From Halorubrum californiense DSM 19288 (GTDB taxonomy: Archaea > Halobacteriota > Halobacteria > Halobacteriales > Haloferacaceae), in contig NZ_AOJK01000064.1 of the NCBI RefSeq assembly GCF_000336875.1, forward strand, positions 67,159 to 131,158: a stretch of DNA of 64,000 bases, given 5' to 3'. The position numbers were made by a program, and so were the translations under genes. The first letter of the stretch is position 1, and every line of letters starts with the position of its first letter. Positions 35,231 through 62,700 of this stretch are shown here, one piece after another. The notes beneath the pieces are model-generated. The model searched no databases, was not told the origin of the DNA, and saw only the letters and a list, made by a program, of their open reading frames with translations.

Positions 35231-35336
35231 TGTTACTCCCAGATCCCGACTCTCCTTAAACGCCGTGGCTCGGCGGTCCTCGACCCGGTCCCGGTTCGGT
35301 CCCGGCGGATCGGTGTCTCATCGCCCGTTCGGCTCG

Positions 35337-35495
35337 TCAGCTGCTCCGCGTCGCGCGCGCCTCGCGGACGTCGGCGCCGTCCCGGACCATGTCCTCGCAG
35401 GCCGGGCAGACGCGGGGCCGATCGACCTCGTTCGGCGTGAACACCCGAACGTAATCTGTCGTCACGAACGAACCGCAGTTCTGACAGGTCGGCAT
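35337..35495 (-). CDS. Small zinc-ribbon protein (DUF7563-like)
   Basis: This is a 52-residue protein with two Cys pairs, MPTCQNCGSFVTTDYVRV and RVCPACEDMV, typical of a zinc ribbon. The pattern matches my memory of haloarchaeal DUF7563. The ATG was chosen as the family N-terminus; the open frame extends further upstream without a plausible start. Its function is unknown; small zinc ribbons like this often bind nucleic acid or protein partners. Confidence 0.75.
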   Translation of the reverse strand: MPTCQNCGSFVTTDYVRVFTPNEVDRPRVCPACEDMVRDGADVREARATRSS

Positions 35496-35581
35496 GGTAT
35501 CCACTATCGAGTAATTCCACATAATACTACCGGGGAGTATGACGGAAAGAAAATTCCCGGAACGCGGCGTCGCCGCGGGCG

Positions 35582-35764
35582 TCAGTTTGGCCGCCAGTCG
35601 CAGACGGAACACCGCGCGCTTCCTTCCTCGTGGAGCGCACCGCACTCGGGACACTGAAGCTTGTTATAGGATCGCTCCCAGTCGACGATCTCTGTCTCGT
35701 GGCCGTGGTCGGAGAGGAACTCGTCGAACACGTCGTCGTCCGAGCTGGGTGCACTACTAGACAT
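35582..35764 (-). CDS. Small zinc-finger protein (HVO_0416-like)
   Basis: This is a 60-residue protein: an acidic N-terminal half (DDDVFDEFLSDHGHETE), then WERSYNKLQCPECGALH and CSVCDWRPN, a CxxC-x(n)-CxxC zinc finger. It resembles the HVO_0416 family of Haloferax as I recall it. The start is the ATG giving MSSSAPSSDD. It lies beside another small zinc ribbon gene, both on the minus strand, but with 86 bases and no overlap between them. Confidence 0.75.
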   Translation of the reverse strand: MSSSAPSSDDDVFDEFLSDHGHETEIVDWERSYNKLQCPECGALHEEGSARCSVCDWRPN

Positions 35765-35936
35765 GCGTGACACGGTATGCCACACCAGCATATATATCTT
35801 TCTGCCGTTCTCGTCGCTGCGAATTACGCGATCGATCGATCAGCTTCTGCGAAAAATGAGTTCGATACACAACTTTTCAACGAGGTACTCGCCGGGGAGC
35901 GGACTCCCGTCTCCGCCCACTACGGCTCGTTCTTCA

Positions 35937-36479
35937 TCACCACGGTTCGTTCTTGACGCCGAGCGCGTACGCGCCGACGTTCGTGACGACGTGGAGGACG
36001 GGCGTCATCACGAGGACGACCGCGAGGACGCGCGGCGTGAAAACCCGGAGCGCCCAGTCGGCGTCGACGAGGAAGGCGAGGCCCAGCGCGCCGACGACGA
36101 AGTCCAACTGGTCGAGCCCCGGGAACGCGGCGCCGCGCTCGCGCCCGGACCGGCGCTTGAGGAACGAGGCGCCGATGTCGCCGCACATCGCGCCGAAGGC
36201 GAGCGCGAACGCCGCCGGAAGCGCGAACGTCGGCAGGTCGGCGCCGAGCGCCGCGCTCGCGGGGTCGGCGAGCGCGTTGAGCGCGAGCGCGAGGAGGACG
36301 CCGACGAGGGTCCCGACCGCGGTGCCGCGCCACGTCTTCCCGTCGCCGAGCAGCCGCGCGCCGCGCCACTCGCGGCCGCCGTCGATGGGGCGTCCCCCGC
36401 CGGCCAACACCGCGGCGTTGTTCGGGACGTAGGCCGGGAGCATCGCCCAGAACGCGGTCGCAACGAGCGTGCCGATCAT
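35937..36479 (-). CDS. carS: CDP-archaeol synthase
   Basis: CarS activates the archaeal lipid 2,3-bis-O-geranylgeranylglyceryl phosphate with CTP, preparing it for polar head-group attachment. This is a 180-residue membrane protein with about five helices and family motifs [38 protein letters not shown] and [12 protein letters not shown]. The start ATG ([10 protein letters not shown]) matches the family. A lipid-synthesis partner, GGGP synthase, lies about 6 kb to the left. It is divergent from the proline dehydrogenase gene. Confidence 0.93.
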
Positions 36480-36608
36480 GTCCCCACGGGCGGCGCGCGG
36501 CGTGTTATAAACCCCGGTTCCGTCGTCGCCGATCGTCACCCGGACGCAATTGCGGTCGTCGCCGCCGACTCGGCAAAGGTAAAGTTCGCTCCGGCCGGAA
36601 CGCTCAGT

Positions 36609-41159: not shown

Positions 41160-41231
41160 GGGCTCGTAGATCAGTGGCAGATCGCTTCCTTCGCAAGGAA
41201 GAGGCCCGGGGTTCAAATCCCCGCGAGTCCA
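41160..41231 (+). tRNA. tRNA-Ala (anticodon CGC)
   Basis: A full cloverleaf of 72 bases folds. The acceptor stem GGGCTCG pairs with CGAGTCC (one G-U), the D stem is GATC/GATC, the anticodon stem is CTTCC/GGAAG with loop TTCGCAA (anticodon CGC, reading GCG), and the T stem is CGGGG/CCCCG with loop TTCAAAT. The discriminator base is A, and CCA is not encoded. There is no intron. Its last 13 bases are repeated 87 bases downstream. Confidence 0.97.
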
Positions 41232-45798: not shown

Positions 45799-48069
45799 AT
45801 GGCCACTAACCCCGACACTCCACCCGATCCGACCGACCCCCCGACCGACCCCGAGACAGCAGAGGACGGCCTGCTCGGCGACGAAGAGTCGCTCGACCTC
45901 GCCGAAGGCAACCGCGGGAGGAAACAGCTCCTGCTGTACCTCCTCTCGCTACCGTTCTGGGCCGCCGTCGTCTTCGGCCCCACGGTGATCGCGCCCGCGC
46001 TCCTCGGGGTCAGCGAAATCGATGGGTCGGCGACCATCCTCGGCGTCGGCGGTGTCGTCGGCGTTATCGGCGTGGCGGCGGCCGTCCTCTGGCTCGGATC
46101 GGGTATCGAAGAGCGGCTCCGCATGGCGCTCGTCTCCTACTCGATCCCGTTCTGGATGATCGTCATGTGGTACGCGCGCACCCAGCAGATGCCGCGGGGG
46201 CGGTACGCGGTCGCCTTCCTCGGCGGCATCTTGGGCCTGTACGTCCTCTCCGAACTGGACGAGCCGCTGATCGAGGGTAACTGGGTCGAGACGGCGCTGC
46301 TCGTCGTCTCCGGACTGATCACGCTCGGGACGAGCGGCTACCTCTTCTTGAACTACCAGCAGGTCGCGATCGACACGGTCGGTCGCGCGACCGAGCCGCA
46401 GATACTGATGGCGTTCGTGTTCACGCTCGCCCTCATCTACCTGACGTGGCGCTCCTTCGGGATCACGTTCCTCGCGGTCGTGCTGGTCGGTATCGGCTAC
46501 GGACTGGCCGGCCCGCAGATGCCCGGTCCGCTGGCCCACGGCGGCCTGAGCCCATCGCGGATCCTCCGGATCCTCGTGGTGAGCGTCGACGGGTTCTACG
46601 GGTTCCTCACCCGGCTCGTCGCCGCGTGGATCGCCCTGTTCCTGCTGTACGCTGGCCTGCTGAAGGCGTACGGCGCGTTCGACCTCATCCTCCGGCTGGC
46701 GGTCCGCTCGGCGAAGTACGTCGACTCGGGGATCGCACAGACCGCGGTCATCTCGAGTGCGGTCATCGGTTCGGTAAACGGGAGCCAGACCGCGAACGCG
46801 GGGATGACCGGCTCGTTCACCATCCCGCTGATGAAGAAGAACGGGATCAAACCGGAGACCGCCGGCGGGATCGAGGCGGTCGCCTCGACCGCCGGGCAGG
46901 TGCTGCCGCCCGTGATGGGCGCCGGCGCGTTCATCATGGCGCAGCTCATCAGCGGCGCCACCTACGTCGACGTGATCATCTCGGGGCTGATCCCGGCGGC
47001 CGTCCTCGTGGTCTCGATCGCGATGGCGGTCCACTACGTGGCGGCCCCGCAGATCGACGACCCCGAGATGGACGGCCTCATCGGCGACGCGATGGAGACG
47101 CGAACGGTGGTGCTGGAGGCGGTGAAGTACGGCGTCCCGCTCGCCATCCTGATCTACGTGCTCGGGGTGCTCCAGTACACGGTGATGACGGCCGCGCTGT
47201 ACACAGTCATCTCGATGATCGCCTTCGGGATCGGCATCCCGCAGATTCAGGCGCTCCTCGACGGCGAGAGCAACCGCGAGGCGCTCGTCGGCACGCTCGA
47301 ACAGACGGTCGACGGCTTCCGGGAGGGGATCCTCGTCGTCGCGCCGGTGACGATCATCCTCGCGGCGATCAACGGCGTCGTCGACATCCTGATGGCGACT
47401 GGCGTCCCGACCGCCATCTCGCTCACGCTGCTTGACCTCTCGGGCGGCATCGCGATCATCGCGTTCATGCTGGCGATGATCATCTGTATCATCCTCGGCC
47501 TCGGCATGCCGACGACCGCCGCGTACACCGTCGTGGCGCTGCTCGTCGCCCCGACGCTGATCAACCAGTTCGCGGTGCCCGAGTTCGCGGGCCACTTCTT
47601 CGTGTTTTACGCCGCCATCTTGGCGGGGCTGACGCCGCCGATCGCGACCTGCGTCGCGGTCACCTGCGGCATCTCCGGCGGCGGGTTCTGGGGGAGCTGT
47701 AAGGAGGCGCTGCGTATCTCCGCGCCGCTGTTCGTCCTCCCGTTCGCGTTCGCCTACCACCCCGAACTCGTCTCCGGGACGTTCGACTACGCCTCGCTGT
47801 CCGCGGGCGTGCTCGCGATGCTCGGCTCGCTCGCGATCATCCACGGGATCAACTATCGGTTCGTCTTCGGCCGCGGACAGACGTACGGGCTGCGGGTCGC
47901 GTTCTTCGTCGCCGGCGTGGTGGCGATGGTCCATCCGAGCCAGATGGTCCAGTTCGGCGCCTTGGCGGCCGTCCTCGCGCTGTACGGCCTCCAGACCGTG
48001 ATCGGCCGGCCGAACCCGCTGGGCACCCTGCGCGGCGCGGCGGGCGTCTTCTCCGGCCGGAAGCGGTAG
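45799..48069 (+). CDS. TRAP transporter fused permease (4TM-12TM)
   Basis: This is a 756-residue membrane protein with about 18 helices. It fuses the small and large TRAP permease domains, the form that partners TAXI binding proteins. Motifs include the conserved permease segments GSVNGSQTANAGMTGSFTIP, EAVASTAGQVLPPVMGAGAF and LGLGMPTTAAYTVVALL. The acidic N-terminal 45 residues are cytosolic. The substrate cannot be inferred from sequence. The adjacent CoA-transferase and MaoC genes suggest an organic acid, which is an inference. Confidence 0.94.
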   Translation: MATNPDTPPDPTDPPTDPETAEDGLLGDEESLDLAEGNRGRKQLLLYLLSLPFWAAVVFGPTVIAPALLGVSEIDGSATILGVGGVVGVIGVAAAVLWLGSGIEERLRMALVSYSIPFWMIVMWYARTQQMPRGRYAVAFLGGILGLYVLSELDEPLIEGNWVETALLVVSGLITLGTSGYLFLNYQQVAIDTVGRATEPQILMAFVFTLALIYLTWRSFGITFLAVVLVGIGYGLAGPQMPGPLAHGGLSPSRILRILVVSVDGFYGFLTRLVAAWIALFLLYAGLLKAYGAFDLILRLAVRSAKYVDSGIAQTAVISSAVIGSVNGSQTANAGMTGSFTIPLMKKNGIKPETAGGIEAVASTAGQVLPPVMGAGAFIMAQLISGATYVDVIISGLIPAAVLVVSIAMAVHYVAAPQIDDPEMDGLIGDAMETRTVVLEAVKYGVPLAILIYVLGVLQYTVMTAALYTVISMIAFGIGIPQIQALLDGESNREALVGTLEQTVDGFREGILVVAPVTIILAAINGVVDILMATGVPTAISLTLLDLSGGIAIIAFMLAMIICIILGLGMPTTAAYTVVALLVAPTLINQFAVPEFAGHFFVFYAAILAGLTPPIATCVAVTCGISGGGFWGSCKEALRISAPLFVLPFAFAYHPELVSGTFDYASLSAGVLAMLGSLAIIHGINYRFVFGRGQTYGLRVAFFVAGVVAMVHPSQMVQFGALAAVLALYGLQTVIGRPNPLGTLRGAAGVFSGRKR

Positions 48070-48256
48070 GGGACGGCGATTCGCTGGCGGATTCTTTTCT
48101 CAATCGGCTGACGCGGCAATTTCGACTCGTCCAGTCCGCTTCTTGCGACGTGTTTCGAGACTCCCGACCGACCGTGTTGCGGTGAACACGGCTAAGCCCC
48201 TGCCGCTCACTTGTAAGCTGTCACCGGCGGATCGACGGCAAACACCTCCAAAGCCC
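48070..48256. other. Gene-free stretch before the structured element
   Basis: After the permease stop the sequence holds no plausible start and regular codon pattern on either strand. The only notable item is a T-rich stretch shortly after the stop (ATTCTTTTCT) that could terminate the transporter transcript. Confidence 0.5.
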
Positions 48257-48412
48257 CAGCCGGGAGGGCGCCGTACGCTCGCTGTCGTTCGAAAGGCGCG
48301 GAGCGCCTTTCGTGATGACGAGACGCCGAAGGCGTCTCGAACCATGCTCCTCGGTCGTTCGCTCCGCTCACTCTCTGCGGTGCTTGCGTCGCCTACGGCG
48401 CCCTCCCGGCTG
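48257..48412. repeat. Structured inverted-repeat element
   Basis: Perfect 19-base arms (CAGCCGGGAGGGCGCCGTA and its complement) at 48257-48275 and 48394-48412 enclose 118 bases. Inside are two tight hairpins: CGAAAGGCGC, loop GGA, complement (48290-48312) and CGAGACGCC, loop GAA, complement (48319-48339), which together can close with GTTCG/CGAAC. The result is a cruciform or four-way RNA fold. No protein is encoded. It could be a MITE-like repeat, a structured RNA or a DNA signal; the sequence alone does not decide. Confidence 0.7.
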
Positions 48413-48580
48413 CCCCTTTGAGTCCCACCCCGCACAGCACCTCACGCCTCCCCAGCCTCGTCGCTCGCTACGCTCGCGACTCCCTCGCACGCGCTCCTCG
48501 CGGCCGCCGGTGGCGACCGCTCGGAGGCGCGCGCCGAGGTGAACAGTTGGAGAAACGCGTCGAGTCCTTCCCGAGTCTTT
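48413..48580. other. Low-complexity spacer before hemB
   Basis: This stretch continues the element with CTC/CCTC-rich sequence (CAGCACCTCACGCCTCCCC) and CGCTCGC units, then a run of T (TCTTTTTATAAG) next to the hemB stop that may end the hemB transcript. No gene is seen. The CTC-rich part could belong to a larger dispersed repeat together with the inverted-repeat element. Confidence 0.5.
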
Positions 48581-49561
48581 TTATAAGTGGTCGGCCACGT
48601 CCTCGGCGAAGTACGTGATGATGAGGTCCGCGCCCGCGCGTTTGAGCGCCGTGAGCGACTCCAGCGCGGTCGTCTCCAAGTCGAGCCAACCCTTCTCCGC
48701 GGCGGCGTGGAGCATCGCGTACTCACCCGAGACGTTGTACGCCGCGATGGGGCAGTCGAACTCCCGCCGGAGGTCGCCGACGATATCGAGGTACGGGAGC
48801 CCGGGTTTCACCATCAGCACGTCGGCGCCCTGCTCGGCGTCGAGCCGCGCCTCTCGAAGCGCCTCGCGGCGGTTCGCGGGGTCCATCTGGTAGTGGCGGC
48901 GGTCGCCGAACGCGGGCGCGCCGTCGGCCGCGTCGCGGAACGGGCCGTAAAAGGCGGACTCGTACTTCGCGGCGTAGCTCAGGATCGCGACCTCCTCGTG
49001 GCCCGCGTCGTCGAGCGCCTCGCGGATCGCCCCGACCTGCCCGTCGGTCATCGCCGAGGGAGCGACGACGTCCGCGCCCGCGTCGGCCTGCGAGACGGCG
49101 GTACGCGCGAGCAGGTCGAGCGTCTCGTCGTTCTTGACGGTGAGGGTCGGGTCCGACTCGGCCGACTCCTCGATGACGCCGCAGTGGCCGTGGTCGGTGT
49201 ACTCGCAGAGGCAGACGTCCCCGATGACGGTGACGTCGGTCTCGGCGTCGATCCGGCGGATCGCGCGCTGGACGACGCCGTCGTCGGCGTACGCCCGGCT
49301 CCCGGAGGCGTCCTTCGACTCGGGGACCCCGAAGAGGATCACGGCCTCGACGCCGGTCTCCCGGATCTCGGCGACGCGGTCGACCGCCTCGTCGACCGGG
49401 ACGCGCTCGTGGCCGGGCATCGTCTCGATGGGGACGCGCTCGTCGGTCGTGGCGTCGACGAAGACGGGCGCGACGAGGTCCGACGCCGAGAGGTCGGTCT
49501 CGGCGACGAGCGGGCGAACGCCGTCGGTCCGGAGGCGGCGGGGCCGGTCCGTGAGGTCCAT
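48581..49561 (-). CDS. hemB: Delta-aminolevulinic acid dehydratase (porphobilinogen synthase)
   Basis: HemB condenses two 5-aminolevulinate molecules to porphobilinogen for heme and cobalamin synthesis. The 326-residue TIM-barrel enzyme has the catalytic lysines in LSYAAKYESAFYGPF and DVLMVKPGLPYL and a zinc-type metal motif DVCLCEYTDHGHCG (three Cys). The start is the ATG giving MDLTDRPRRL. A TATA-like GGTAAAAGG lies about 28 bases upstream. It is monocistronic, with a small gene ending 84 bases upstream on the same strand. Confidence 0.96.
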   Translation of the reverse strand: MDLTDRPRRLRTDGVRPLVAETDLSASDLVAPVFVDATTDERVPIETMPGHERVPVDEAVDRVAEIRETGVEAVILFGVPESKDASGSRAYADDGVVQRAIRRIDAETDVTVIGDVCLCEYTDHGHCGVIEESAESDPTLTVKNDETLDLLARTAVSQADAGADVVAPSAMTDGQVGAIREALDDAGHEEVAILSYAAKYESAFYGPFRDAADGAPAFGDRRHYQMDPANRREALREARLDAEQGADVLMVKPGLPYLDIVGDLRREFDCPIAAYNVSGEYAMLHAAAEKGWLDLETTALESLTALKRAGADLIITYFAEDVADHL

Positions 49562-61792: not shown

Positions 61793-61795
61793 GTG

Positions 61796-61819
61796 AACCC
61801 CTCTGTTTCAGGTGGAGAC
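61796..61819 (-). promoter_or_regulatory. Origin recognition box in the orc1 promoter
   Basis: On the minus strand TCCACCTGAAACAGAGGGGT is a clear match to the boxes at 62251 and 62486. It sits between the TATA-like box (GATATACC, about 61825-61832) and the orc1 start, so Orc1 bound here should block its own transcription. Confidence 0.8.
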
Positions 61820-61824
61820 GGTCG

Positions 61825-61832
61825 GGTATATC
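61825..61832 (-). promoter_or_regulatory. TATA box of orc1
   Basis: The minus-strand GATATACC is about 37 bases before the orc1 ATG. Transcription would start about 25 bases downstream, inside the origin recognition box. Confidence 0.5.
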
Positions 61833-62250
61833 GCTTGAGACGCCGTCTCCCGTCGGAAATACGCATTCGCGGTCGGAATCGAGACCGACCACGTCCAGTT
61901 GATACACTCGAACCAGATGAAGAGACGGTACAAAAGTGTTCCTCTCTGGAGTTGAAACGCCCCCCTTTCACGAGATGTCAGGTAGATCGCGAGGCGATTC
62001 GAACCGATCGACGGGACGGTCGAACAGGTTGAGTAGTCGAGAGGATACGAACGACGAACGTAGAGATATCGTATCCCCTGAGAGATTACCTCGTGTTCTA
62101 ACGGGTTTCAGCCGCTGATATCGTTGATTTACTGATCACGTGGTTGCGGCGTGACTACCCGTATTCGGACTGGCAGTTCGGTTTGTCGGTTTCGCTTTGG
62201 TAACTTCTGCTCCCCACTTCCGGTTCCGTTGGGCCGACTCGATCCGGGAT

Positions 62251-62280
62251 ACCCCCACACCCCTTTGTTTCGGGTGGAAC
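62251..62280 (-). other. Left origin recognition box with G-string
   Basis: On the minus strand the box reads GTTCCACCCGAAACAAAGGG followed by GTGTGGGGGT. The terminal G-rich tail is the halophile-specific extension of origin boxes. It points toward the boundary of the origin, opposite in orientation to the right box. Confidence 0.9.
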
Positions 62281-62312
62281 GCCGATCAGGGTGGGGAGGG
62301 GGTCGTGAGGGG

Positions 62313-62432
62313 CTATCTTAATAGCGGTGGTTTTATAACTCCATATACACAACAGTACCCTTGTTAAACCCCTCTGCTAGATTATTTGTTTTATTGTGGT
62401 TGTTTTATATAGAGATCGGTATAGAATTATCT
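62313..62432. other. AT-rich duplex-unwinding element
   Basis: Between the inverted boxes lies a stretch very poor in G and C for this genome, with runs such as TTATTTGTTTTATTG and TTTTATATAG. It is the expected place of initial strand opening. It also carries a partial box AACCCCTCTG (62367-62376). Confidence 0.8.
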
Positions 62433-62485
62433 GCCGGCAACCGAATCGACCTCGACCACCCGCCCAACCCCCGGCAGGTTGTGGA

Positions 62486-62513
62486 GTTCCACCCGAAACG
62501 AAGGGGTGGGGGG
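62486..62513 (+). other. Right origin recognition box with G-string
   Basis: The box reads GTTCCACCCGAAACGAAGGG followed by GTGGGGGG. It differs from the left box at two positions, one in the core and one in the G-string. Confidence 0.9.
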
Positions 62514-62661
62514 CTCCCGAACAACATCGACAGACCGACGACCGGTAGCGACAGTCGGCACTGGACTGTCGGACCGCTCCGATCGATTTCGGCGGGCCCC
62601 CCGTATATCACGGTCGACGCCGATAGTTTTACCACCCGGTAAACGAACTGTATCCACACCC
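62514..62661. other. Spacer between origin and CoA-transferase leader
   Basis: No gene is seen. A hairpin CGACAGTC/GACTGTCG with a seven-base loop (62549-62571) and a TATA-like AGTTTTACC (62624-62632) are the only recognisable items. Confidence 0.5.
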
Positions 62662-62700
62662 ATGAGACAACTCCGCACGTCGAACGAGGTGGTTCGATGA
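62662..62700 (+). CDS. Possible 12-codon leader peptide before the CoA-transferase
   Basis: ATG to TGA encodes MRQLRTSNEVVR. Its stop overlaps the CoA-transferase start (ATGA), and its ATG is about 30 bases after a TATA-like AGTTTTACC, so it would be the first codon of a leaderless transcript. It could couple or regulate translation of the next gene. It may equally be a chance frame in a 5' leader. Confidence 0.35.
   Translation: MRQLRTSNEVVR

Follow-up and report, generated by a model that had tools for sequence, protein, structure and literature searches.

A dispersed intergenic repeat family of Halorubrum and other haloarchaea with a conserved one-strand fold

Among the described systems closest to the repeat reported here, SMR-A of Haloquadratum walsbyi is portrayed as an element of ∼110 bp with prominent inverted ends and up to 54 copies per genome, for which no target duplication was seen and the mode of mobilisation was given as unknown; the same account, as far as it goes, reports no mutual sequence similarity among the SMR families and names PATE/IS605 palindromes as their targets (PMC3119063). 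PATEs are presented there as palindrome-associated, IS605-related elements without long inverted arms (PMC3119063), and bacterial REP/BIME/REPIN sequences are outlined as hairpins of 20–40 bp connected with RAYT (Y1) transposases (PMC2817692, PMC3116915, PMC3733652). Compared by description only, our repeat resembles SMR-A in that its 112-nt short form matches the ∼110 bp with prominent inverted ends and both are haloarchaeal, and it is set apart from the SMR-A so described by spanning several families, by a covarying fold and by a rod that lies inside a larger conserved element. Long inverted arms, which the PATEs of that account lack, mark the main rod, while a 61-nt module nested in some copies, with two near-terminal-type palindromes, can be likened by description to the terminal-only 52-bp forms of PATEs (PMC3119063). 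With REP/BIME/REPIN sequences as outlined in those sources the repeat shares its intergenic location, more than 100 copies per genome, palindromic nature and, in some genomes (G058), inverted pairs, but its rod of 112 nt is no short palindrome of 20–40 bp, and one genome without a Y1 gene (G016) nevertheless carries 128 copies of the core motif. The structured RNAs of Rfam 15 share in kind a covariation-supported fold, and none of its families matched. A description of this family was not found in the open-access literature searched; most subscription journals lay outside that search, so it may be published elsewhere.

The window analysed is a 64,000-nt stretch of the genome of Halorubrum californiense DSM 19288, in which a cluster of hairpins sits between genes for a TRAP-type permease (45799–48069, plus strand) and HemB (48581–49561, minus strand), both named from their translations. 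The preliminary description, made from the letters of the window, had reported at 48257–48412 a non-coding inverted-repeat element with exact 19-nt arms and two perfect tight hairpins, paired far beyond chance. Arms and hairpins proved exact (Table 1), and the pairing exceeded that of shuffled sequences by z −8.1 (DNA, 48240–48430) and z −8.6 (minus-strand RNA, 48249–48420); it moreover continues outward over 30 nt (48249–48278/48391–48420, 87%). Three overlapping ORFs scored −40.7 to −53.1 by codon usage, and these negative scores, together with the lack of any ORF overlap in 58 elements placed in two 400-kb stretches (0/58 overlapped a scored gene), rule out a coding role. A phage origin was likewise rejected, as no phage match was obtained. 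The claim that the gap is the largest without genes outside the origin holds roughly, 48070–48580 ranking third in the window by a crude gene scoring, behind 35231–36608 and 61793–62696. The block itself is real, but it spans only the centre of an element of ∼350 bp (∼48190–48538), of which this locus carries a long-form copy.

Table 1. Features of the long-form copy in the window
Feature	Positions	Strand	Details
Left part, degenerate tandem unit	48190–48248	−	AAGCCCC... at 48194, repeated at 48251; TATA-like TTGTAAG, then GGATCGACGGCAAACACCTC
P3 rod, long form	48249–48420	−	R1 score and covariation; minus is the folded strand; CAAAG/CTTTG helix, GGG/GGG internal loop, 19-bp stem, G.A-rich inner domain
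P3 stem left arm, 19 nt	48257–48275		Exact reverse complement of 48394–48412
P3 stem right arm, 19 nt	48394–48412		Exact reverse complement of 48257–48275
Nested 61-nt two-hairpin module	48285–48345		Hairpins 48290–48312 (48290–48299/48303–48312, 10 bp, loop GGA) and 48319–48339 (48319–48327/48331–48339, 9 bp, loop GAA), linker TGATGA; missing from standard copies
P3 inner hairpin, tandem G.A/A.G motifs	48347–48381	−	Homologous to columns 43–70 of alignment A1
Conserved linker	48421–48460	−	Carries core motif CCTCACGCCTCCCCAGCCTCG (48440–48460)
P2 hairpin	48460–48480		Sequence differs among copies
P1, element right end	48487–48538		GCGCGTGC.../...GCACGCGC-type outer pairing round a variable hairpin; from right-end alignment and fold

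Alignment of the short-form records among 40 collected copies with their flanks showed a conserved block much wider than 48257–48412, in which a left unit ending in GGATCGACGGCGAACACCTC is followed by the rod, a linker with CCTCACRCCTCCCCARCCTCG, the variable hairpin P2 and the compound hairpin P1 ending in GCGCCACCGCA. The left part at this locus is built on a direct repeat, D1, whose tandem copies are also found in locus L045; more generally, the left side of the element consists of tandem units of 51–57 bp, several with their own TATA-like box (L045 599–744; window 48194 and 48251). Between P2 and P1, some copies (e.g. L053, L061 and L062) contain another optional insert of two hairpins (AGCGAG...CTCTGGCAGCCGGCG...GAC), and past the right end unrelated loci such as L139, L173 and L177 share one more module, TTTATAA-about 30 nt-TTTAAATA. 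The rod centre is flipped relative to the element ends in 3 of the 40 collected copies (L038, L057, L060), which look as if recombination between the arms had inverted it.

The two tight hairpins stressed in the preliminary description are present, but the element does not centre on them. Most copies in the same genome align to the query left and right of 48285–48345, with ∼1 nt between both segments; therefore the two hairpins constitute an insert that most copies lack, found at the identical place in the minority of long forms. A close relative of this 61-nt module stands alone on plasmids of Halolamina, Natrinema and Haladaptatus, with no credible rod detected by the covariance model near the stand-alone modules in L333, L334 and L336, hence we regard it as a separate small palindromic module. 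The L333 copy adjoins, by eye, an apparent tnpB remnant. A hammerhead ribozyme, considered for the TGATGA-stem-GAA arrangement of the module, was discarded as no Rfam hammerhead matched up to E 10.

A lack of copies and of covarying stems, named at the outset as grounds for refutation, was not observed; copies are numerous and covariation is strong. The 156-base query gave 48 matches in its own genome, while the 21-nt core motif of the linker occurs 90 times there, 195 times in G065 and 9–195 times per genome in all 52 genomes of the genus searched, against 0 or 1 for a reversed-pattern control. Among the matches listed (80 loci of at least 117 stretches), named records with the exact linker-side pattern belonged to Halorubrum, apart from one MAG, uncultured archaeon A07HR67. 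The reach of the rod is wider: at E 1e-4, R1, a covariance model built from Halorubrum rods, matched 86 of 146 genomes of the order, representing 37 of 56 genera, counts in which many single weak matches may be due to chance and several genomes have many strong ones. Under laxer filters, R1 gave 81 matches in G058, which belongs to another family, 33 in G036, 24 in G115 and 18 in G159. In G106 its matches were at chance level only (19.6 bits). In G058 the element often appears as BIME-like inverted pairs ∼300 bp apart, e.g. G058:C1 1748571 (−) and 1748888 (+). An inverted pair of copies on a Halobaculum plasmid was confirmed by the model, and BLAST matches suggest plasmid-borne relatives in Halorussus, Haloarcula, Natrinema, Halobacterium and others; for Halorussus caseinilyticus (L340) the model gave just a partial match of 20 bits.

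The conserved object within these copies is a 112-nt rod, the short form, on the minus strand. In 27 gap-free rods, picked from 71 short forms for equal length (alignment A1; a second alignment, A2, holds 68 of the 71), 98.9% of 1026 pair cells were paired and both sides changed in a compensatory manner in 22 of 38 pairs. Doubly changed cells numbered 122 versus 32.9 in shuffles, none of 500 shuffles reached the observed values, and slid controls paired at 49.5% or less. RNAalifold recovered a nearly identical structure unaided. Three tandem G.A/A.G motifs are nearly invariant (25–27 of the 27 rods), with covarying pairs between them. The outer 12 pairs are nearly always Watson-Crick in 214 distinct cores, a set that favours paired copies in requiring end motifs like AAGCCCC and CCCCTTTGAGTCC plus at least 7 of 12 outer matches, whereas their letters vary freely (pair 11: CG 73, GC 70, AT 46). 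Rods of other genera paired at 99.0% of 304 cells, and the G.A motifs were retained in 16–17 of 17 rows of alignment A3 (3 Halorubrum rods and 14 from other genera, drawn from the strongest matches); the stems of these other-genus rods differ, the inner core is shared, and compensatory change extends to the outer CAAAG/CTTTG helix.

Like the fold, its strand is established. At pairs 1–12 of the 214 cores, non-Watson-Crick cells on the plus strand were A/C in 71 cases versus G/T in 15, and wobbles are therefore retained on the minus strand; this sum omits pairs 13–18, which include a shifted subfamily with many G/T, so that over all 18 outer pairs both classes are equal, 91 and 91. In the 27 rods the minus strand, summed by hand, shows 24 G/T versus 5 A/C. 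RNA folding energy was lower for the minus than for the plus strand in all 27, and R1 scored the minus strand of the window copy at 77.8 bits and its plus strand at 34.8. This locus belongs, as a long-form copy, to a family of non-coding repeats scattered between genes, and what the family conserves is the folding of one strand, here the minus, into a 112-nt rod that bears three tandem G.A motifs. These patterns also bear on the view that the palindrome is kept symmetrical only by quasi-palindrome correction through template switching, with no selection. Arms that are near-perfect inside copies and different between them are what such correction would produce, but it would also remove the tandem G.A mismatches and would yield no strand bias such as the 71 to 15 observed. 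We consider this explanation largely refuted and very improbable.

Four G-tracts (TGGGGAGG, GGGNGGG, AAGGGG, GGGGCTT) occur together in 44 of 51 copies of G065 and G074; in 24 loci of other genera two of them are near universal (23 and 24), one is frequent (19) and one is present in 10. As a structural guess, they might form a quadruplex junction.

What the folded strand does we can only infer, and the leading possibilities for its function are a mobile repeat resembling REP sequences and a new family of RNAs. According to the latter, the copies would form a gene family for a structured non-coding RNA; each would be transcribed from its minus strand, and the folded product might act in trans or as an RNP. 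The G.U-type wobble bias of that strand, the conservation across families of the tandem G.A motifs and of invariant A residues left unpaired, and a fold backed by compensatory changes and found unaided by RNAalifold all speak for this possibility, which appears nearly as good as a REP- or SMR-like nature and to which we would give about one chance in three. At the hemB site of 30 genomes, however, inspection by eye showed a full rod in 15, a reduced one in 8 and none in 6, with 1 that could not be assessed, and therefore no copy is required there. At Rfam 15 gathering level the 64-kb window gave no match other than a tRNA gene (41160–41231), and weak matches around this copy were at chance level.

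Signals at the element ends bear on the same question. A TTATAA box recurs at a constant distance of 38 nt left of CAAAGCCCC, on the CAAAG side, in 82 left flanks (full-length ones among up to 229), with further boxes 3 nt to either side of that position in 15 and 9 flanks; of up to 107 right ends, 45 are followed by TTATAA at 5–9 nt. Boxes at fixed positions suggest transcription, which counts against a mobile element. By the usual spacing of archaeal promoters, the left box would suit a plus-strand promoter, in conflict with the minus-strand fold and thus with minus-strand RNA genes, and by the same spacing the right box stands too close to the element end to start a full RNA, for which reason a minus-strand promoter was rejected. 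A plus-strand RNA was likewise dismissed; promoter spacing fits it, but wobble bias and energies do not.

The 58 elements are flanked by convergent genes in 18 cases, tandem in 14 (++) and 19 (−−), and divergent in 7, against 37, 58 and 71, and 72 among 238 background gaps longer than 150 bp, so that convergent gaps are over-used and divergent ones under-used, with no orientation preference in tandem contexts. In the genome of the window, 29 of 34 records had both flanks, distributed as 9 convergent, 10 and 8 tandem, and 2 divergent. The enrichment in convergent gaps and scarcity in divergent ones, along with a T-rich stretch that many copies show after P1 (plus strand), could point to a cis-acting DNA or RNA site between genes, such as a transcription terminator, a 3′ end stabiliser or a nucleoid-protein site. 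Nevertheless, the balanced tandem orientations argue against this reading, convergent genes with stops ∼10 nt apart manage without the element (L086, L094), and a simple terminator needs no 112-nt fold with conserved G.A motifs; we therefore hold a cis-acting site to be unlikely.

In G065 the prevailing orientation of the elements changes close to the main replication origin (G065:C1, main orc1/cdc6 at 269553–269831). Within 750 kb of it, 37 plus and 17 minus copies lie on one side and 19 plus and 36 minus on the other (Fisher p 5e-4), in a window picked post hoc, with gene-strand bias not controlled and with p 0.03 for the whole chromosome and 0.51 beyond 750 kb; the test drew on 99 of the 102 plus places and 92 of the 93 minus ones.

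Sites are shared between species, but the copy in a shared site is usually no nearer to its partner there than to copies elsewhere. Of 31 elements compared between G065 and G074, 23 have a counterpart element in the corresponding interval, the rest being empty, ambiguous or unplaced, while the same-site partner is the best match in only 3 of 18 same-site pairs listed by hand from this comparison; the aligned flanking blocks are mostly ∼88–96% identical. At one site occupied in one species (G065 145016–147446 vs G074 147841), the other has, by reading, a tnpB-like gene instead, and elsewhere the element is replaced by unrelated sequence of similar length. This exchange of occupants at fixed sites, together with the loss of rods, the nested modules and the lack of orientation preference, favours a non-autonomous element of REP/BIME or SMR type, recognised as a folded single strand and spreading by copy replacement, a reading to which we assign a probability of roughly 0.45.

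Under such a replacing element, some factor would recognise the folded single strand, either as ssDNA that replication forks expose or in the form of an RNA copy, and spread would proceed mainly by the replacement of resident copies at existing sites through conversion or recombination, with an occasional new insertion. The fold would be kept because only foldable copies spread, and the host would tolerate copies between genes, away from promoters. Several observations count against mobility. The target-site duplications suggested as a check at the outset yielded no clean case, empty sites lacking the whole block of 600–700 bp; recent transposition was not visible, the best pairs within a genome being ∼90% alike; and a mobilising enzyme was not found, nor was an autonomous transposon sharing these ends, as expected for a MITE, noticed among the loci inspected. 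Y1 matches in 5 of 6 genomes do not show association by their presence, and G016, with 0 Y1 matches, lends no support to a Y1 transposase as necessary partner. In addition, the minus-strand bias and the conserved unpaired A residues suit RNA as well as ssDNA. The interpretation first proposed, a structured RNA, a non-autonomous mobile element or a protein-binding DNA structure, is partly supported, and any of the three may hold. In a bolder and rather doubtful formulation, several families of the order would share an RNA or ssDNA family with a fold absent from Rfam, combining three tandem sheared G.A motifs with a G-tract junction able to form a G-quadruplex in the K-rich cytoplasm, whose copies, up to ∼200, would be maintained by homing-like replacement at fixed sites.

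If these interpretations are right, haloarchaea harbour a repeat family, old and abundant, whose strand-specific fold is under strong selection and is missing from Rfam. Its conserved sites with exchanged occupants would offer a natural system for the study of conversion, mobility or a new archaeal RNA, and the family could account for many of the intergenic gaps that look empty in these genomes.
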